From: Gammaproteobacteria bacterium
GTDB lineage: Bacteria; Pseudomonadota; Gammaproteobacteria; Chromatiales; Chromatiaceae
DNA length: 64,000 nt
Direction of reading: 5' to 3'
Assembly (NCBI GenBank): GCA_030065815.1
Contig: JASJCU010000003.1
Span: forward strand, 1-64,000
In this document: one piece after another, positions 2,647-14,129 of the stretch
Numbering within the stretch: position 1 is the first letter of the stretch
Layout: each line of letters opens with the position of its first letter
Notes under the pieces: generated by a model
Databases searched by the model: none
What the model was told of the DNA's origin: nothing
Seen by the model: the letters and a program-made list of their open reading frames with translations, nothing else
Program-made: the position numbers and the translations under genes

Positions 2647-2939
2647 TGCCAGCAGATGTCGAAACCGGCGTCGACTTCGGCGCCGCAGGTCTCACACACC
2701 CAGGGCCCGACCTTCGGCAGGTTGCCGCGGCTGGCGCGGAACCCGTCGAGCACGCGCTGGGCGCTGTGCAGGTCGTCATTGTTGATCAACCAGACCCACG
2801 GAAAATTCATCGCCGGCAGTTCACCGGCCGCGCCGCTGAGGTACTCGCCGAGCACCGTGGCCTCGATTCCGTGCGCGTCCAACGCGTCGATCAGCTGGCG
2901 GGCCTCGAGGCTGTCGCGGGCTTCGTAGAACTTGAGCAT
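2625..2939 (-). CDS. DUF2007 family protein with C-terminal zinc-ribbon-like CxxC pairs
   Basis: [42 protein letters not shown]...; [19 protein letters not shown]. Confidence 0.8.
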
Positions 2940-3031
2940 GCGCTATCTGACAAACTTCATCTTGCGTACAATGATGCGCGATCGGACCGGTGCGGCATAG
3001 CCCCGTCGGCGACATAGGCAGTACCCCATCG

Positions 3032-3689: not shown

Positions 3690-3899
3690 TCAGATGCCCA
3701 TCAACCACTTGATCACCGACTTGGCGATGAAGCCGAGCATGCCGAACGCGAGCACGAAGAACAGCACGAACGCGCCGAACTTGCCGGCGTTCGACTTCTT
3801 CGCCAGGTCCCAGATGATGAACAGCATGAAGCCGATCATCGCCGTCAGGCCCCAGGTCATCCCAAACTCGGCGACCTTTTCCTCGCTCAGGTTGAACAC
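3690..3899 (-). CDS. DUF2788 small membrane protein
   Basis: 69 aa with two hydrophobic helices: MFNLSEEKVAEFGMTWGLTAMIGFMLFIIWDLAKKSNAGKFGAFVLFFVLAFGMLGF. Confidence 0.7.
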   Translation of the reverse strand: MFNLSEEKVAEFGMTWGLTAMIGFMLFIIWDLAKKSNAGKFGAFVLFFVLAFGMLGFIAKSVIKWLMGI

Positions 3900-3902
3900 C
3901 GG

Positions 3903-4709
3903 TCAGTCGGCGAGGGCGCCGGGGGGCAGCCGGTCGGCGTCCACGAGGTCGCGGTAGACGTGCCAGGACGCATGTCCGATGACCGGGTACAGGACGATGA
4001 AACCGAGCATCAGCGTCGCCACCGAGAGCCCGGTCGCGAGCAGGATCAACAGCGCCCACCAGGTCATCGTCACCGGGTTCTCGGCGACCGCGCGCACGCT
4101 GGTCGCCAGTGCCAGCGGCGTCGTGACGTCGCGGTCGACGAGCAGCGGTACAGCGACGACGGTGACCGCGAACGTGACCGCGGCGACCAGCCCGGCGAGC
4201 ACGGTCCACAGCAGGAACGCACGGTCGTTCTGCAGCACGATGTAACGCACGAAATCCAGCGGGCGTTCGATATCGGCGCTGACGAAATAGTGGAACAGCA
4301 GCATCGAGAACAGCACCCAGGTGGTCCCGCCGAGCACCAGCAGCAGGCCGAAGCGGAACAGGCAGGTACTGCCGCGCCGCCACGCCTCGACGGCATCGCG
4401 GCGGCTCGGCGGCTGACCGGCCTCGATACGGCGGCTCAGCGCATACAGGCCGGTGGCGAGGATCGGGCCGACGACCAGGAAGCCGGACACCGCGCCGGGC
4501 AGCAACGGCCAAAACAGCAGCGTGATCTCGACGATCACGACGCTCAACGCCATGACGATCAGACCGTGCATCAGGCTCGGCCAGCCCGCGGCGCGGAAAT
4601 CGCGCCAGCCGAGGCGTATCCAGCGCAGCACCGCGCCCGGACTGACTTCGCGGATCGGCGGTGGGCTGATGCGCCGTCCCGCAGCCGAGGCCTCACCGTT
4701 CGCCGTCAC
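3903..4709 (-). CDS. DUF2189-like integral membrane protein (GTG start proposed)
   Basis: Multi-TM protein; DWLRLGWRDFRAAGWPSLMHGLIV-type start, GHASWHVYRDLVD near the C terminus. Confidence 0.7.
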   Translation of the reverse strand: MTANGEASAAGRRISPPPIREVSPGAVLRWIRLGWRDFRAAGWPSLMHGLIVMALSVVIVEITLLFWPLLPGAVSGFLVVGPILATGLYALSRRIEAGQPPSRRDAVEAWRRGSTCLFRFGLLLVLGGTTWVLFSMLLFHYFVSADIERPLDFVRYIVLQNDRAFLLWTVLAGLVAAVTFAVTVVAVPLLVDRDVTTPLALATSVRAVAENPVTMTWWALLILLATGLSVATLMLGFIVLYPVIGHASWHVYRDLVDADRLPPGALAD

Positions 4710-5002
4710 GTCTCGTCCTCCGGGCGTCTGCCTCTCGATGCCGCGAGTATACCGGGCGGTCGGCGGACGCGGATGCGGCGACCGGACGCGTCCGCGAGTC
4801 GCCGCGCAGCGGTGCACCGCGTGTCATGAGCAGCGCGCCCGCCGCTCGGCACCGGCTGCCGAGGCCGCGGCGCGGCGCCGATGACCGCGCCGACAGCGAC
4901 GACCGCACGCCGACCCGCGGCCCGCTGCCGCGATCACGTCGCCGGTCGTGACGCTCGGCCGGTCACAGGCACGGGCCGGCGAAGCGGCGGCGGCCGGCGC
5001 GG

Positions 5003-5647
5003 TCAGCCGTCACCGCCGTCGGGCGCGCGCCTGAGCAGGCGCCACAGCGTCGTCTGGTCGGGGAAACCGCTGGGCTCGAGGTCGCTGGCCTGCTGGAATG
5101 CCGCGAGCGCCTGCTGCGTGGGCGGACCGAACGCACCGTCGGTGGCGCCGTCGTAGTGGCCCAGATCGGCCAGGCGTTGCTGCACGCGCCGCACCACCTC
5201 GGCATACAGCACGGCACGCCGGTTGCCGACGACGACGTCGACGGTCGCCGACGCGCGCTCGAGGCGGTCGTCGTTGAAGGCCGCGAGCAGCGTGTTGACC
5301 ACCGGGTAGAGACGGTCTTCGGGGTTGCCGGCACAGTGCTGGTCGATCAACAGCAGCAGCAGTTCGAGCGACTCGAACGACGTGACATCGAAGGTGTCGT
5401 CGAGCAGCTTGTTGTGCGCGGTAACGAAACCCTCGACCCAACCGGCGACCATGTAATACACATTTGAGCGCTGCTCGCGCTCGCGGACATAGACCGCGCA
5501 CGGCAGCAGGCCGGCGCCCTCGATCGCCAGGCTGCCGTCGCGATCGGCGGCGCCCGCCGTTGCGGCCGTGACAACCAGCGATGCCGTCAGTGCGACACAG
5601 TGGAGGCGGCGGCGCAGGAAGCGCCACCGGCTGCGTAATCGATTCAT
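5003..5647 (-). CDS. Secreted protein with C-terminal peptidoglycan-binding (PG_binding_1-like) domain, copy A
   Basis: Signal peptide; C terminus VQQRLADLGHYDGATDGAFGPPTQQALAAFQQASDLEPSGFPDQTTLWRLL. Paralogous to 8631-9227. Confidence 0.75.
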   Translation of the reverse strand: MNRLRSRWRFLRRRLHCVALTASLVVTAATAGAADRDGSLAIEGAGLLPCAVYVREREQRSNVYYMVAGWVEGFVTAHNKLLDDTFDVTSFESLELLLLLIDQHCAGNPEDRLYPVVNTLLAAFNDDRLERASATVDVVVGNRRAVLYAEVVRRVQQRLADLGHYDGATDGAFGPPTQQALAAFQQASDLEPSGFPDQTTLWRLLRRAPDGGDG

Positions 5648-5715
5648 CGCTGGATTATGCGCGATCTGCCGGGCGCTACGCGAGACGCACCGAGCAGACC
5701 CTTAGCGGACCGTGT

Positions 5716-7506
5716 TCAGGTCGACGCCGCAGCGCGCACGCGCCAGGCCAGCGGCAGCCCGAGCAGCACCAGCAGCACGCTGGCCGGAACCGGGATCTCA
5801 CCGGTGATCGCCGGCAGCACGATCGGGTTGATCGCGCTCAGCGCCTGCCGGTCGCTCGGCGGCAGCGAGGCGCTGCCGAGCGAGATCAGGAAACTGTCGC
5901 CGATTTGCAGATCCCAGCCCTGCAGGTCGAACAGCTTGCTGTAAAAGGCCGGCGAGTCGAACAGGTCGACGCCCTCGTTCAGGACATTGCCGATCCCGAT
6001 CGAGCCCTCGATATTGAGCAGGTCGAAGCCATAGGTGATCTGCAGCAGGTCGATGATGAACTCGAGATCGAAATCGAGCAGCGTCTCGTTCATCAGCGTC
6101 GCGTCGAGGAAGAAGGTCGGCGTGACCAGCGTTTCCGCGGCAAGGAAAGTGATATCCGGCAGCAGGTCCCAGGCCGACTCCCACTCGGTCACGAGACTGC
6201 CGCCGATCTCGACGGCCTCATCGAAAGCCAGGCTGACCCACAGCGTCGGATCGAGTTCGAAATCCTGCTGCAGATCGATCGTCGGGCCCATCTGCAGATC
6301 GATGATGTCGTAACCGAGGTCGACGCCGGCGACCGTGACGCTGGTGCCGAACAGGCCGGGCACGCCCGCGGCCGTGGCAATGATGTTGTCGACGTCGAGG
6401 AACAGGTCGAGGAGGTCGTCCTGGCCGGTCGCCTTCAGCGTGCTGGTCGTCGCGTCGAGGCCACCGCTGGCGTCCGGTTGCGGCAGGTGCAGCGTGATCT
6501 CGGCCAGGTCGGCCACGTTGAGCGCGAGCGGGAAGCCGTTGGCGACGTCGGGCAGGCCGAACGCCGACGGGTTGCGGCCGAGTAGCTGGATGCCGCCCTC
6601 GCCGTCGGCATTGAACGACAGGATGGAGGCGCGTTCTTCGATGTTGAACGGCGTGCCGCCCGCGGTACAGCCGACCCCGATCAGGCAGGCCTCGGCCGAG
6701 ACCTCGCCGTTCAGCTCCATGACCGCATCGAGCGACAGCGCCAGCGTCGGGAACGTCGTGTTCAGCGTGTTGGTACCGGCCAACAGGCTGTTGGGGTTGA
6801 AATTGATCGTCGCACCGGGCGCCAGGCTGGTCGTGTCCGGGATGTCGAACGAGGCCTGGTACGACACCTGGGCATCGACCGAGCCGCTGTCGATCTGCAC
6901 GCCGAGTTCGAGTCCCGCGCGGCCGTCGTTGGTGCCCCTGACGGCGACGCCGGTTGCCGCAGACAACGTGGCCGGCGGCGCGGTGCCCAGTGCCGGCACC
7001 GGCAGGCGTGCGCTCTGCCCGTTGCGGCAGGTGCTCGACGAAAAGCCGAGGCGGCGGCACGCCGAGAACGCCACGTCGTAGGCCGCGCGCCGCGTGATGT
7101 CGCCGGCGCGCTTGATGTTACAGGCGACCGCGAAGCGGCCGCAGCTGCGCACCGACGGACGCCGGCCGAGGGCGGCGACCGGCACCCGGCCGGCCTGGCC
7201 GTTGATACAGGTGCTGGTCGAGTTGCCGAGCCCCCTGCAGGCCAGCAGCGCCCCGTCGTAGACGGCGCGCGCCGGATTCGGCACCGTGGCGCCCTCGCCG
7301 ATGATGCCGTTGATCTCGGTGGTCTTGTCGGTCCACGCCGCACCGAGGAACGTGGTCTGGTCGAGCGTGAACGACGTGCCGGTGTCCCACAGGCTCTGCC
7401 CGCCGGTCTGGAATGTCAGGTCGTAGCTAACGGGTACCGCGTTGGCGGCCAGCGGGGCGCACAGCATTGCGGCGAGCAGCGCAAGCTGCGGGGATCTGCG
7501 TGACAT
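5716..7506 (-). CDS. PEP-CTERM-type secreted protein, copy A
   Basis: N-terminal signal peptide; C terminus GEIPVPASVLLVLLGLPLAWRVRAAAST (motif + TM + Arg-rich tail); internal 34-aa repeat with paired cysteines. Confidence 0.75.
   Translation of the reverse strand: MSRRSPQLALLAAMLCAPLAANAVPVSYDLTFQTGGQSLWDTGTSFTLDQTTFLGAAWTDKTTEINGIIGEGATVPNPARAVYDGALLACRGLGNSTSTCINGQAGRVPVAALGRRPSVRSCGRFAVACNIKRAGDITRRAAYDVAFSACRRLGFSSSTCRNGQSARLPVPALGTAPPATLSAATGVAVRGTNDGRAGLELGVQIDSGSVDAQVSYQASFDIPDTTSLAPGATINFNPNSLLAGTNTLNTTFPTLALSLDAVMELNGEVSAEACLIGVGCTAGGTPFNIEERASILSFNADGEGGIQLLGRNPSAFGLPDVANGFPLALNVADLAEITLHLPQPDASGGLDATTSTLKATGQDDLLDLFLDVDNIIATAAGVPGLFGTSVTVAGVDLGYDIIDLQMGPTIDLQQDFELDPTLWVSLAFDEAVEIGGSLVTEWESAWDLLPDITFLAAETLVTPTFFLDATLMNETLLDFDLEFIIDLLQITYGFDLLNIEGSIGIGNVLNEGVDLFDSPAFYSKLFDLQGWDLQIGDSFLISLGSASLPPSDRQALSAINPIVLPAITGEIPVPASVLLVLLGLPLAWRVRAAAST
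6985..7266 (-). repeat. Two copies of a 34-aa coding repeat within PEP-CTERM protein A
   Basis: AVYDGALLACRGLGNSTSTCINGQAGRVPVAALG and AAYDVAFSACRRLGFSSSTCRNGQSARLPVPALG, spaced 60 aa, 22/34 identical. Confidence 0.85.
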
Positions 7507-7977
7507 CTGGATTCGGCCTCGTGGTGGCAGGAACCACCGCCGGCTCCCGATCGGGGAATCGGCAAGCAGATTGCGCGCCAGACCGAGAAAACCGTCGTCA
7601 GATCATAGGCTACGGCCTTTGACACAGACTTCATGTGTGTATCGAAATATTAATAATGTAAACGGCGCTGACAACCCGCTGTCGACCTACGGCGCCGGCA
7701 GGTGCAAGCCACACCGGGCCTGCGATCGACTGGATCCTTCGTCGGGCGGTCGGGCGTCAGCCTCGGGCCGTACGCCAGCCACGATGCCATCGCCGGCGGT
7801 ATGGCAGGCACACGCCGCATGGATACGCGAATCTGGGCAGCCACGTTTGCACCCGCGACGCAAGACCTGCAACGGCTCCACCGGTGATACCAACAACGAG
7901 TCACTGCGCCCAGCCGCCCGTTCGTCAACGGGCACTGGCGATCGCCGGTCGGCCGTCGCGCGAAGCACGGGTGGTGA

Positions 7978-8010
7978 TGGAGCGGGTGAAGGGAATCGAA
8001 CCCTCATTAG
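7978..8010 (-). pseudogene. 3' fragment of tRNA-Gly (T arm to CCA)
   Basis: tggagcgggtgaagggaatcgaaccctcattag is identical to 11104-11136 of the intact tRNA-Gly; the 5' part is missing. Confidence 0.9.
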
Positions 8011-8381
8011 GCCGAACTGCGAAAGCGCATCCACAGCGCACTCTGCAGGAACTCGACGATGTCACTGAAGCCGGGTTTCGAATCGCCGCGGGTGCGCTCG
8101 ACGAACTCGACAGGCACCTCGACGATCCGCGCATCGCGCAACACGGCCTCGTAAAGTAGCGCGATCTGGAACGCATAACCCTGCACACGCAACGCCGACA
8201 GGTCGATCTGCGCGAGCAGCCCGCTGCGGATCGCACGAAACCCGGCGGTGCAGTCGCGTACGCTGTAGGTGCCCGCGAGGAAGCGCGCAAGGATGTTGCC
8301 GGACAGCGAGTTCAGGCGACGCAGCAGTCCCCATTCGCGCGGGATGCTGCCGCCGCTGACGTAACGGCTGCCGATGACGAG
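8011..8381 (-). pseudogene. Internal fragment of GT2 glycosyltransferase gene (copy of ~11713-12083)
   Basis: Near-collinear nucleotide match to the intact gene; encodes VIGSRYVSGGSIPREWG...FRSSA only, no N or C terminus. Confidence 0.9.
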
Positions 8382-8382
8382 A

Positions 8383-8580
8383 ACCGTGTTGAGGTCGACG
8401 CCGCAGCGCGCACGCGCTGGGCCCGCGGCAGTCCGAGCAGTACCAGCAGCACGCTGCCCAGGACCGGGATCTCACCCGTGATCGCCGGCAGCACGATCGG
8501 GTTGATCGCGCTCGGCGCCTGCCGGCCGCTCGGCGGCAGCGAGGCGCTGCCGAGCGAGGTCAGGAAGCTGTCCCTTATCT
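8383..8580 (-). pseudogene. 3' tail fragment of PEP-CTERM gene A (copy of ~5709-5910), stop codon lost
   Basis: SFLTSLGSASLPPSGRQAPSAINPIVLPAITGEIPVLGSVLLVLLGLP... versus SFLISLGSASLPPSDRQALSAINPIVLPAITGEIPVPASVLLVLLGLP. Confidence 0.88.
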
Positions 8581-8630
8581 GCATCATTGATCGCCGCGGC
8601 GAGCCCTCGCCGGAGGCAGAACGCCGGGAC

Positions 8631-9227
8631 TCAGCGAGCCTGCTCGAAGAACAAGGCAAACAGGGTTTTCTGATTGGGAAGCCCGGTGGGCTCGAGGCCC
8701 CGTTCGTCCTGGAACGCTCTCAAGGCATCCGACATGCGTGCATCGAACGCTGCGCCAGGCGAGCCGGCGTCGTAGCCAATGTCGCCGAGGCGGGCCTTCG
8801 CTGCGTCGAGTACCGCACGGTAGACCACCATGGCGCGTTGCCCGCGGCGGATTTCTTCGAGCTCGGACTTCTCGGGCAAACGTGTCGGCCAGATTTGTCG
8901 CATCAGGACCGACGTCGCATCGATGAACCGGGCCTGCGGTGCGAGCTGCTTGCAGACAGAGTGCGTCAAGCCAAGAAGCGTCTGGGTGGTCTGCCACGGA
9001 GTCGTGTCGTAGGTGTTGTCGACGTGCTGATTGACCGCCGTGACGTAACCGTCGATCCAACCCGCGTATTGCTTCAAATCGGTGTTACCCTGATCCCAGG
9101 CAGCGATGAACTGTCCGCAGGTCTGGGCACCGGCCCCCTTGATGGCGAACTGGCCAGTCTTCTCGGCCGCATCGGCACCGAACGCTGTCGCTGCAATCAG
9201 TAATGCCAAATTGAGTCGTCGAATCAC
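8631..9227 (-). CDS. Secreted protein with C-terminal peptidoglycan-binding-like domain, copy B
   Basis: Signal peptide; AKARLGDIGYDAGSPGAAFDARMSDALRAFQDERGLEPTGLPNQKTLFALF; same layout as copy A. Confidence 0.75.
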   Translation of the reverse strand: MIRRLNLALLIAATAFGADAAEKTGQFAIKGAGAQTCGQFIAAWDQGNTDLKQYAGWIDGYVTAVNQHVDNTYDTTPWQTTQTLLGLTHSVCKQLAPQARFIDATSVLMRQIWPTRLPEKSELEEIRRGQRAMVVYRAVLDAAKARLGDIGYDAGSPGAAFDARMSDALRAFQDERGLEPTGLPNQKTLFALFFEQAR

Positions 9228-9242
9228 CTGCTTGCCTCCTCC

Positions 9243-9280
9243 AAAAAAAACGAGGCGTGTAGTGACCTACACGCCTCGTT
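9243..9280 (-). terminator. Rho-independent terminator downstream of PEP-CTERM gene B
   Basis: Perfect stem aacgaggcgtgtag/ctacacgcctcgtt, loop tgac, and a T run on the minus strand (aaaaaaaa on plus). Confidence 0.9.
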
Positions 9281-9301
9281 ACGCATTGCCTATCCGATGC
9301 T

Positions 9302-10663
9302 TTAGGCCGATGCGTCAGGCGCGAGCGGCGCTCGGGCGTGCAGCTTGATCGCAGCAAGTCCCAGGAACATCAGGAACAGGGTTGCCGGCAGCGGGACCGT
9401 ACCGTTACCGCCACCACCGCCGCCGTTCATCCCATTGTCAGTGATCGGCGTTACCGACACGGTGTCAACGGCGCTGGTCGCGTTCACGAACGAAACGCCG
9501 ATCGGGAATGCCAGGGGATTGGTCGGATCGAGCATCAGCGCCGGGTCGATGCCTTCCAGCAGGAAAGACGTGGGATTCACGCCGAACTCCGTGAAGAAAT
9601 CCAGGACCTGGCCGGCCAGGATCGGAATAGTCACGCCACCGACAGTCAGCAGATATCCATCGAGATCCGCAACCGTCGCCAATGACGGCGCTGTCACCGT
9701 ATCGAAGAAGTTGCCCACGGGCGCCTCGTACTCGTAGCCAACAGCTACCGGAGGGTCGACCCACAATGTCGTACCCGCAGGCGCAGCCGGCAGCTCGATC
9801 ACGAACTCGCCGGTTAACGGATCCGGAGGATTGCTAGGCAGCAAGGGGTTGAACTCGCTGCTACCCGGGGTGTTACCCGGACCCTGGGTAAAGAAGCTGC
9901 TCAGGTAGACCGTGGTATCCAGCGCGCTGTCGTTGGCATCCGCGATAATGATTGTGAAATCGTTCTGTGCTGCCGGATTGATCGGAACGTCGAAACGCAG
10001 CACCGGATTGCCATTCGGTGCCAACACGGCATTGAGCTCTGTGCCCGGCAGGGGTGTCATGTCCGGATGGTTGATATTCACCGGCAGACCGGCGATCCCG
10101 TTGCTAGAAGCGACACCTGCCACGTTCTGCCCGTTCACGTACAGGCCGAATCCGTCGACGAAGGGGCTGCCGACGAAGTCGGGGAATTCCTCAGAGCCAA
10201 AGGTCGCGAAGAAGGTCGCCGTGGTGTTCAGGGAATTGTTGAAAAAAGAGATATCGAGCTGCGACACGTCGAAGTGAGAAGACTGCCCGGTGATGGGTGA
10301 CAGCAGACTGTTCTGCGCCGCCGTGGCCGTTGTCATGAAATCGGTCGTGAAGCCATTCACGGTATCCGGGCCATCGGCATAGTTCTCGACCGCACCACTG
10401 GACAGCACGATGCCTGAGACCGGCAGACCGTAGGTACCCGAGAAGTTCGTGTAGGTTCCGGCCTGCCCGAACTCACCACTGTAGGAGGCACCGTTGACTT
10501 GAAGCAACGTGGTGTTCTGGAACAGGGTGTTCGCAAGCCCGAAGGCATCCGATGTCGGTACGATTGCGATTGCCCATACGGGCTGGGACGCAACAACCAA
10601 TAAACCGGCGAGCATTGCCGATCGCATGCGAAACGGTAGGTTGGTTGGATTGGTTTTTTCCAT
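9302..10663 (-). CDS. Choice-of-anchor-L-like PEP-CTERM-type secreted protein B
   Basis: FATFGSEEFPDFVGSPFVDGFGLYVNGQN; C-terminal VPLPATLFLMFLGLAAIKLHARAP; start at MEKTNPTNLP preceded by a GGGGAGA ribosome-binding site. Confidence 0.8.
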   Translation of the reverse strand: MEKTNPTNLPFRMRSAMLAGLLVVASQPVWAIAIVPTSDAFGLANTLFQNTTLLQVNGASYSGEFGQAGTYTNFSGTYGLPVSGIVLSSGAVENYADGPDTVNGFTTDFMTTATAAQNSLLSPITGQSSHFDVSQLDISFFNNSLNTTATFFATFGSEEFPDFVGSPFVDGFGLYVNGQNVAGVASSNGIAGLPVNINHPDMTPLPGTELNAVLAPNGNPVLRFDVPINPAAQNDFTIIIADANDSALDTTVYLSSFFTQGPGNTPGSSEFNPLLPSNPPDPLTGEFVIELPAAPAGTTLWVDPPVAVGYEYEAPVGNFFDTVTAPSLATVADLDGYLLTVGGVTIPILAGQVLDFFTEFGVNPTSFLLEGIDPALMLDPTNPLAFPIGVSFVNATSAVDTVSVTPITDNGMNGGGGGGNGTVPLPATLFLMFLGLAAIKLHARAPLAPDASA

Positions 10664-11103
10664 TATTTTTTCTCCCCACGAAGACGCTGTCCGGTCTTCA
10701 TTTGAAGCACCCGGATATCGACGCGCAGTTACAGGACGAAGCTGCATGCGGGGCCAACCAGACCCCGAGGCAGCGCGGCACTGGGGATCGTCTCCAGCAA
10801 AAAGCGTGCCCGCCCTGAAAAACAGTCATTTAGGGAGATTGAAATTTGGTTTTGTAAAGAATGCGAACAGTCTGCGAAATCTATCGCACGCGGTCGCACA
10901 ACCTCGCCGCTCGACCCCGCGATGCCAAGCCAACCTGTCCTTGGCGCAAGAACCGGGCAAAGCCAGGCAGCCTGAACCGGCGACGCAAGACCTGCGGCCG
11001 CTCCTCCAGTGACGCGAACAACGCGTCGTTGCGCCCGGATTCCCGGTCGTCGACGGGCAGCTGGCGATCGTCGGTAGGCCGTCGCGCGGAGCACGGGAAA
11101 TTA

Positions 11104-11177
11104 TGGAGCGGGTGAAGGGAATCGAACCCTCATTAGAAGCTTGGGAAGCTCCTGTTCTACCATTGAACTACACCCGC
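11104..11177 (-). tRNA. tRNA-Gly (anticodon CCC), CCA encoded
   Basis: Minus strand GCGGGTGTAGTTCAATGGTAGAACAGGAGCTTCCCAAGCTTCTAATGAGGGTTCGATTCCCTTCACCCGCTCCA; anticodon loop TTCCCAA. Confidence 0.95.
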
Positions 11178-11327
11178 CGATCGGACTGGCCCGACGCACG
11201 CCAAACGGTTACCGCGGGCTCGGTCAGCGACGCCAGCCTATCACAATCGACGCAGCGCGGAGACCATCGGCAGCGTACCGCGATCGCGCACCGCGCCTGT
11301 CGTCGGCGACCGCCACGCGCCCCGGCT

Positions 11328-12434
11328 TCAGGCCTGCGGATCGTGCCGGAACGTCCAGTACGAGTTGAGGAAGTAGTTGATCAGTGCCGCCGGCACGATC
11401 CCGGCGAGCTGGTGCCAGTGTGGCGCGACGTCGGGGAACGCGAGGCTCAGCGCGACGAACGTCACGTAGCTGACGGCGAGCGACGCGAACGACACGGCAT
11501 TGAACTTGAGGCCCTTGATCCGGGTACGGTCGCGCGACTTGCGCCAGCGGAACGTCCAGTAGTTGTTGAACAGGAAGTTCCAGATGATCGACAGCTCGAT
11601 CGCGATCGGCGACGCGATGAACTTGTTCACCCCCAGGCCCAGCAGCAGCGCGAACGCCCCGAGGTTGACGACCACCCCCGATGCACCGACCAACGCGAAC
11701 TTGATGAACGTCGCCGAACTGCGGAAGCGCAGCCACAGCGCACTCTGCAGGAACTCGACGATGTCGCTGACACCGAGTTTCGAATCGCCGCGGGTGCGCT
11801 CGACGAACTCGACGGGCACCTCGACGATCCGTGCACCGCGCAATACCGCCTCGTAAAGCAGCGCGATCTGGAACGCGTAGCCCTGCACCCGCAGCGCCGA
11901 CAGGTCGATCTGCGCGAGCAGTCCGCTGCGGATCGCGCGAAACCCCGCGGTGCAGTCGCGCACGCTGTAGATGCCGGCGAGGAAGCGCGCGACGATGTTG
12001 CCGAACAGCGAGTTCAGGCGACGCAGCACGCCCCACTCGCGCGGGATGCTGCCGCCGCTGACGTAGCGGCTGCCGATGACGAAATCGGCGCCGTCCTCGA
12101 TCGCGTGCAGCAGCCGCGGGATGTCGTCGGGCTTGTGCGAGAAATCGGCGTCCATCTCGAACACGACGTCGGCGCGCAGCACGTCGAGCGCGTGCCGCAT
12201 GCCGCGGATGTACGCGGCGCCGAGGCCCGCCTTGTCGCCGCAGATCATGTGCAGGTTCGGCATCGCGGTCTGCTGTGCGCGCACGACCTGTTGCGTGCCG
12301 TCGGGCGAGTTGTCGTCGACGACGAGGACCTGCATGTCGTGATCGAGGCGCCCGAAGACCGTCTGCAGCTGTGCCAGCAGCTCGGCGATGTTGTCCCGTT
12401 CGTTGTACGTGGGAACGATTACGACAATGTTCAC
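11328..12434 (-). CDS. GT2 (dolichol-phosphate mannosyltransferase-like) glycosyltransferase with C-terminal GtrA-like domain
   Basis: VVIVPTYNERDNI, VDDNSPDGT, MDADFSHKPDDI; C-terminal FALVGASGVVVN...FNNYWTFR. Confidence 0.92.
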   Translation of the reverse strand: MNIVVIVPTYNERDNIAELLAQLQTVFGRLDHDMQVLVVDDNSPDGTQQVVRAQQTAMPNLHMICGDKAGLGAAYIRGMRHALDVLRADVVFEMDADFSHKPDDIPRLLHAIEDGADFVIGSRYVSGGSIPREWGVLRRLNSLFGNIVARFLAGIYSVRDCTAGFRAIRSGLLAQIDLSALRVQGYAFQIALLYEAVLRGARIVEVPVEFVERTRGDSKLGVSDIVEFLQSALWLRFRSSATFIKFALVGASGVVVNLGAFALLLGLGVNKFIASPIAIELSIIWNFLFNNYWTFRWRKSRDRTRIKGLKFNAVSFASLAVSYVTFVALSLAFPDVAPHWHQLAGIVPAALINYFLNSYWTFRHDPQA

Positions 12435-12491: not shown

Positions 12492-14129
12492 TCAGGGTAG
12501 CGCACACGCCAGGTCGCGCGCGCACCGGTACGTGCGCAGCTCGCCGCCGTCGAATCCGGACTCCGCGAGCAGCGTCCACCCCGCGGCTGTCAGCGCGCCC
12601 TCGAGCGCCGCCCTGGCATCGTCCGGGCAATGTGATGTCACGACGCCCAACGTTACCATCGCGTCGTCGGTCGGCGCGGCCGACGTTGCACTCGCGACGG
12701 GCATCGGACGCCTGCCGCGGTCGACGGCACCGCGTTTCCAGCGGAACAGGTCGTCGGGCAGCGCGCGCAGCTCGTCGACGCGGCTGCCGGCCGTTGCGGC
12801 AGCGCCGCCGAGCGGCAGCGGCGTAGACGTGAAGCCCGAGTCGGCGAGTCCCCAGGCGAACACCGGCGGCAACGGCGCCAGCGGCAGCGCGTAATAGGCA
12901 AACGGCATCGCCACGGTCGGCGAACAGATCAGCAATGCGCGCGGCCGGTCGGTGGCCGCCGATGCCGCGTGCCAGGCATCGGCGGCGGCGCGCCAGTCCT
13001 CGTTCTGTGTCGCACCGATCTGGTGGAACGCGACGGCCGAGCGCGCCGCGGCCAGACCGATCAGTGCAACCAGCGCGGCCTGCACCCAGGCGCGGCGATC
13101 CGGCAGAGCGGCAGCCAGCAACAGCGGCGTGCCGAGATAGGTCCAGGCCACGGTACGTTCGATGAACAGCGGCTGTACGAAGCCGATCGCCCAGATGGTC
13201 AACGGCGCGACGCCGGCGAGCAGCACCAGCAGCGTCGCGATCGCCGGCCTGGCACGCAGCCGATAGGCACCGTACGCCGCCAGCGCCAGCAGCAACACAT
13301 CGACCCAGGGCTGGCCGTACCACAGGTAGGGCAGGCCGTGCAGCTGGCGCCAGACCGTGAACGCGCGATCGGGGTCGGCGTGCGGCAGCCAGGCCATCGT
13401 GCCGTTGCCGAGCAGCTCGGTCACGACGATGACGAGCCACGGCAGCCAGAGGACGAACACCAGCGCATTGACGGCGAGCCAGCGCCACAGCACGCGGGGA
13501 TCGCGCGCCGACCACAACCACCACGACAGCGCGAACGCGAGCTGCGTGAAGAACACGAAGAACACGGCGATGTTGTTGGTGTACAGCGCGATCAAGATGC
13601 CGGCCGCGTACAGCGTCGTGCCGCGTCTCGACTCGCGCACCGCGTCCGCGCGCCGACCCGTCGGCGACGCCGACCCGGCAGCCATCACCATGACCAGCCC
13701 GAGCAGCGCGACGGCGAGGCCGAATGCGAGCAGCGCATAGCCGCGCGCCTCCTGGGCGTACTCGATCTGGCCGGCGGACAACGCCAGCAGCATCGCCGCC
13801 AACAGGCCGCCAGCGCGCCCCGCGATGCGACTGGCCGCGACATAGACGAGCGGGATCGTCAGCGTGCCGAACAGTGCGCTCGGCAGGCGCACGCTGAACT
13901 CGGTGTCGGCAAACTCAAGGCACAGCTTGACCAGCGAGTAGTGCAGCGGCGGCGCGTTGTCGTAGCCGCTGAGCCACAGCGTGGTCCACGGCAGCGACGC
14001 GAACTTGATGCTCGCGACCTCGTCGAGCCACAGCGACGCCGCGCCGAGGTTCCAGAACCGCAGCGCCGCACCGACCGCGACGATCAGCGCCAGCGCGCCC
14101 CACGCCCGGTGACGTGACGACAAAGGCAT
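12492..14129 (-). CDS. Glycosyltransferase family 39-like (ArnT/PMT-type) membrane protein
   Basis: N-terminal LGAASLWLDEVASI (DE motif after TM1), many TM segments, YAQEARGYALL. Confidence 0.85.
   Translation of the reverse strand: MPLSSRHRAWGALALIVAVGAALRFWNLGAASLWLDEVASIKFASLPWTTLWLSGYDNAPPLHYSLVKLCLEFADTEFSVRLPSALFGTLTIPLVYVAASRIAGRAGGLLAAMLLALSAGQIEYAQEARGYALLAFGLAVALLGLVMVMAAGSASPTGRRADAVRESRRGTTLYAAGILIALYTNNIAVFFVFFTQLAFALSWWLWSARDPRVLWRWLAVNALVFVLWLPWLVIVVTELLGNGTMAWLPHADPDRAFTVWRQLHGLPYLWYGQPWVDVLLLALAAYGAYRLRARPAIATLLVLLAGVAPLTIWAIGFVQPLFIERTVAWTYLGTPLLLAAALPDRRAWVQAALVALIGLAAARSAVAFHQIGATQNEDWRAAADAWHAASAATDRPRALLICSPTVAMPFAYYALPLAPLPPVFAWGLADSGFTSTPLPLGGAAATAGSRVDELRALPDDLFRWKRGAVDRGRRPMPVASATSAAPTDDAMVTLGVVTSHCPDDARAALEGALTAAGWTLLAESGFDGGELRTYRCARDLACALP

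Follow-up and report, generated by a model that had tools for sequence, protein, structure and literature searches.

Tandem duplication followed by random loss (TDRL) is the standard model of gene-order change in mitochondria, with pseudogene remnants as its intermediates. RtT repeats (Rfam RF00391) adjoin tRNA genes and include tRNA ends. The tRNA-Gly(CCC) gene is also a documented target of integrative and conjugative elements (ICEs), ICEbph-sal and ICEXTD, with almost the same 18-bp end (PMC8704644). Here we describe a mosaic of truncated sequences close to a tRNA-Gly(CCC) gene in a gammaproteobacterium of the Chromatiaceae, found in a 64,000-nucleotide stretch that we call the window (positions 1 to 64,000 of contig JASJCU010000003.1, assembly GCA_030065815.1). 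The mosaic is probably the debris of a second glycosyltransferase (GT)–tRNA-Gly(CCC)–flank–PEP-CTERM A locus, which diverged while working and was later cut down.

The locus is like TDRL in that a doubled head-to-tail segment appears to have been eroded step by step, so that truncated pieces in one orientation are left around a tRNA gene. It is unlike TDRL in lying on a bacterial chromosome and in that loss would have begun only after the copies had come to differ by ~20% at neutral sites, pointing to either import or a paralogous stage of long duration. When bacterial precedents were sought in the literature, mostly mitochondrial papers came up. Like ICEbph-sal and ICEXTD, the locus involves this tRNA isoacceptor and repeats its 3′ end, but here the repeat runs far past the end of the tRNA, fragments of genes from its opposite side are present, and the contig lacks an integrase. 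As in RtT, a partial tRNA and ~130 bp of flank are repeated nearby, whereas the copies here lie 3.1 kb apart with genes between them. The RtT covariance model (RF00391) gave no match in 7700-11400 at E values up to 5, and RtT or another known RNA in the flank was rejected as lacking any match.

Self-comparison of the window showed that positions 7848-8583 consist of three abutting truncated homologues of nearby loci, all co-oriented. The preliminary description had recognized these three matches, with coordinates that were off by no more than 9 bases.

7848..8010, minus strand: truncated second tRNA-Gly(CCC) plus flank (gene nucleotides 42-74 at 7978-8010, ~130 bp of downstream flank at 7848-7977)
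8011..8380, minus strand: interior fragment of a GT2-GtrA glycosyltransferase gene (codons ~117-242, without start and without end)
8383..8583, minus strand: 3′ end of a PEP-CTERM A-like gene, with the stop codon and the PEP motif lost (IPVPAS to IPVLGS)

Their intact counterparts are as follows.

11104..11177, minus strand: intact tRNA-Gly(CCC), the parent-like copy at the center of the rearranged locus (ARAGORN and Rfam RF00005)
10973..11103, minus strand: downstream flank of the intact tRNA-Gly, homologue of the fragment flank at 7848-7976
11328..12434, minus strand: intact GT2-GtrA glycosyltransferase, 368 codons (Pfam PF00535 and PF04138)
5716..7506, minus strand: intact PEP-CTERM protein A (C-terminal PEP-CTERM motif by eye and by pattern)

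The tRNA/flank piece matches 10973-11136 at 84% identity (E = 1e-42). The two are 100% identical over 7977-8010 (the 33 nt at the 3′ end of the tRNA and one flanking base) and 80% identical over the 129 aligned bases that flank the tRNA. The GT piece matches 11713-12082 without gaps at 92% identity (E = 1e-152), and the PEP-CTERM piece matches 5709-5909 at 91% identity (E = 5e-76), covering the last ~64 codons of PEP-CTERM A and 7 nt beyond the stop codon. These three pairs are the only direct repeats of at least 60 bp in the whole window, where no further repeated parts of the GT gene, the PEP-CTERM A body or the intergenic spacers were found; beyond these sites, the organism's own genome yielded nothing but a single weak match of 62 bp, with the PEP-CTERM tail. 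The matches are not due to chance. The junctions are as sharp as had been claimed: microhomology is absent at 8010|8011, and 8380|8383 has at most 1 bp of homology, with two ambiguous bases.

The divergence of the pieces bears directly on their age. The GT fragment has no internal stop codon and differs from the intact gene at 29 sites in 122 codons, 21 of them synonymous and 8 nonsynonymous, so that ~22% of synonymous sites but only 3% of nonsynonymous sites differ (synonymous divergence [dS], 0.26; nonsynonymous divergence [dN], 0.03; dN/dS, 0.11). The noncoding flank has a p-distance of 0.20, equal to the synonymous divergence, and the tRNA part carries no change in 33 positions (P about 3e-4 if neutral throughout). 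We simulated the GT fragment in 400 runs per setting (dN/dS [omega] of 0.03 to 0.1), with equal mutation rates assumed on both branches. Had the fragment been neutral since the split, 28 to 30 nonsynonymous changes would be expected, against the 8 observed; at every setting 0 of 400 runs gave 8 or fewer, and immediate pseudogenization was rejected on this basis. Good fits were obtained with 0 to 20% of the fragment lineage neutral. With the orthologue from a relative (G001) as an outgroup, third-position changes fell on both branches (6 and 5) and first- and second-position changes fell mainly on the fragment (6 versus 1), the pattern expected for late decay. Neutral divergence of 20 to 22%, together with the low dN/dS of the GT piece, implies that the pieces are not recent self-copies and that the second copy would have been functional for most of its separate history. 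On these substitution patterns, the second GT–tRNA–flank–PEP-CTERM locus would have evolved for a long time under selection and been truncated late.

The arrangement of the pieces suggests how this may have come about. The remnants are co-oriented and lie in the order of the source locus, as fits a head-to-tail arrangement, and the novel junction at 8380|8383 joins the end of PEP-CTERM A to the interior of the GT gene. A second copy may thus have become joined head to tail to the resident locus, with the junction between the PEP-CTERM A end and the GT interior surviving at 8381, after diverging by ~20% at neutral sites while still working. This copy could have been a paralogue of long standing, but import from a sister species is more likely, given that no relative carries two loci. 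Late in this history, a single deletion, of about 577 bp as measured on the intact copy, would have brought the GT interior up against the final 33 nt of the tRNA, at nucleotide 42, and one of the two PEP-CTERM A copies would have had its body replaced by a low-GC block carrying PEP-CTERM B and peptidoglycan-binding (PG-binding) protein B. The preliminary description had proposed a tandem duplication followed by deletions, which agrees with the order and orientation of the pieces, but the neutral divergence and low dN/dS do not allow them to be recent copies of their neighbors.

Several points weigh against this history. The duplicated PEP-CTERM A body is wholly absent, so that the duplication has to be read from fragments. 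An intact double locus or a donor version was found in none of 39 relatives or 212 family genomes, which include no close relative, and on these data a paralogue and an import cannot be separated. The PEP-CTERM fragment, with a dN/dS of 0.5 on 64 codons only, shows no selection by itself.

Other origins for the mosaic were considered. A recent local duplication of the present neighbors with immediate decay would account for copies that share a contig and an orientation and have no other counterparts in the genome. It conflicts with the 8 to 20% divergence and with the dN/dS of the GT piece, and it is the least probable of the explanations considered. Only marginally more credible is an assembly chimera between related strains co-occurring in a metagenome bin. 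The genome is fragmented (172 contigs) with 2.6% contamination, and the pieces resemble a sister-species version, but such joins form at shared k-mers, whereas both junctions share only 0 to 1 bp, which argues against an assembler chimera; two such joins within 370 bp would also be required.

Site-specific integration would make the 33-nt tRNA 3′ repeat an attR-like relic of one or two elements targeting tRNA-Gly(CCC), with 8011-11103 as a degenerate island. A direct repeat of the tRNA 3′ end is indeed present at both borders (7978-8010 and 11104-11136), and a congener (G008) has an island between its two tRNA-Gly halves. However, 80% identity persists for ~130 bp downstream of the tRNA, an extension that attB/attP exchange does not produce; the three PF00589 integrase matches in the genome lie on contigs C133, C35 and C90, and none is on this contig (C39); no third att copy was found in the window; and the GT and PEP-CTERM pieces are left unexplained. 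An integrase-made island was rejected because the contig has no integrase and the repeat exceeds the tRNA, and we regard integration in any form as quite unlikely. Three separate illegitimate captures, in which break repair inserted short stretches of diverged homologues, taken from the DNA of relatives, one at a time or all at once, would suit the 0- to 1-bp junction homology, the shortness of the pieces, their truncation at both ends and a locus that is break-prone in the genus. Against this, the pieces are co-oriented, follow the cyclic order of one locus and show similar divergence; a single source locus is simpler, and separate captures seem unlikely.

On the minus strand, the gene order around the mosaic is a FadD-like ligase, a PMT_2 protein, GT2-GtrA, tRNA-Gly(CCC) and its flank, PEP-CTERM B, PG-binding B, the mosaic (PEP-CTERM A tail, GT interior, tRNA 3′ part plus flank), PEP-CTERM A, PG-binding A and a DUF2189 gene. 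Beyond DUF2189 lie SCO1, on the opposite strand, and then mutY.

12492..14129, minus strand: PMT_2-type membrane glycosyltransferase (PF13231)
8584..10972, minus strand: low-GC block, with PG-binding protein B at 8631-9227 (PF01471) and PEP-CTERM protein B at 9302-10747
5003..5647, minus strand: PG_binding_1 protein A, partner of PEP-CTERM A (PF01471)

The GT and PMT_2 genes travel together, the same pair being found in G001 by tblastn; a scan of genome contigs found relatives of the intact GT with 69% identity at most. The GC content of 8584-10972 is 59.7%, versus 68% around it, and family members carry PG-binding/PEP-CTERM pairs similar to those of this block, which was probably acquired later, taking the place of most of one copy. 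The duplicated unit had been described as PG-binding, PEP-CTERM, tRNA-Gly and GT. That composition does not hold: the A and B PG-binding proteins share only 33% identity, and no relationship between PEP-CTERM B and A was detectable (the search recovered A and its tail fragment alone), so the B pair does not stem from this duplication. A 62% relative of PEP-CTERM A adjoins a PG-binding gene in G004. Throughout the family, a ~200-amino-acid PG_binding_1 protein repeatedly adjoins PEP-CTERM genes whose products are unrelated (window 5003-7506 and 8631-10747; L142, L181, L182, L189 and L190), and the two may form a functional pair. The N-terminal part of PEP-CTERM A contains an internal 98-bp repeat (71%; 6994-7090 and 7173-7270) encoding a Cys-containing motif, ACRxLGxSxSTCxNGQ.

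Relatives differ at the same site. The congener G007 has SCO1, tRNA-Gly and FadD directly next to one another, and the tRNA-Gly of G005 has DUF2189 and then SCO1 after it. The ~6 kb found here 3′ of the tRNA, and the GT-PMT pair 5′ of it, therefore look as if they had been either added in this lineage or lost from the relatives. The DUF2189 gene (window 3690-4817 versus L147 9801-10820) is inverted relative to SCO1 between the window or G005 and G008, and it is absent beside SCO1 in G007. Both sides of tRNA-Gly(CCC) are rearranged in most genomes of the genus where they are readable: the 3′ side is occupied by a polysaccharide-type gene cluster in G002, and the 5′ side by other genes in G005 (named by eye, with a diguanylate-cyclase-like protein among them). 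In G008, the tRNA-Gly(CCC) gene is split into nucleotides 1-38 and 49-74 by a ~7.2-kb insert with a different, complete tRNA-Gly(CCC) (L147 [G008:C39:14500-31000] 2455-2492, 2535-2608 and 9760-9785), an island that both disrupts a tRNA gene and brings along a substitute for it. This insert carries arabinan-type genes (DprE1/DprE2/UbiA-like, named by eye) and, also by eye, similar inverted sequences near both ends (about 2930-3000 and 9580-9650). In G001, tRNA-Gly(CCC) is broken after nucleotide 39 (L148 [G001:C66] 7858-7896), and no intact CCC gene is found among the tRNA-Gly matches of that genome. Three loci in two genomes (L149 5546-5812, L150 5334-5595 and L152 4976-5196) show the tRNA-Gly 5′ part (to about nucleotide 51), ~110 conserved bases and then a full tRNA-Gly, with an RtT match (RF00391) nearby at L152 4738-4872.

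Because the fragment in the window starts at nucleotide 42 and two congeners are broken after nucleotides 38 and 39, one of them with a replacement-tRNA island, the tRNA-Gly(CCC) of the genus could conceivably be a preferred breakage point at which an unrecognized recombination process acts on the anticodon stem, although we think this very doubtful.

We propose no function for the mosaic, a scar that is not expected to do anything. As a single scar of an ordinary kind it matters little. It is nevertheless a clean case in which divergence statistics reveal that a patchwork of apparent neighbor copies is what is left of a second locus that once worked, and it identifies tRNA-Gly(CCC) as a place of variation for this group of Chromatiaceae-like bacteria, whose other members also gain and lose DNA there.
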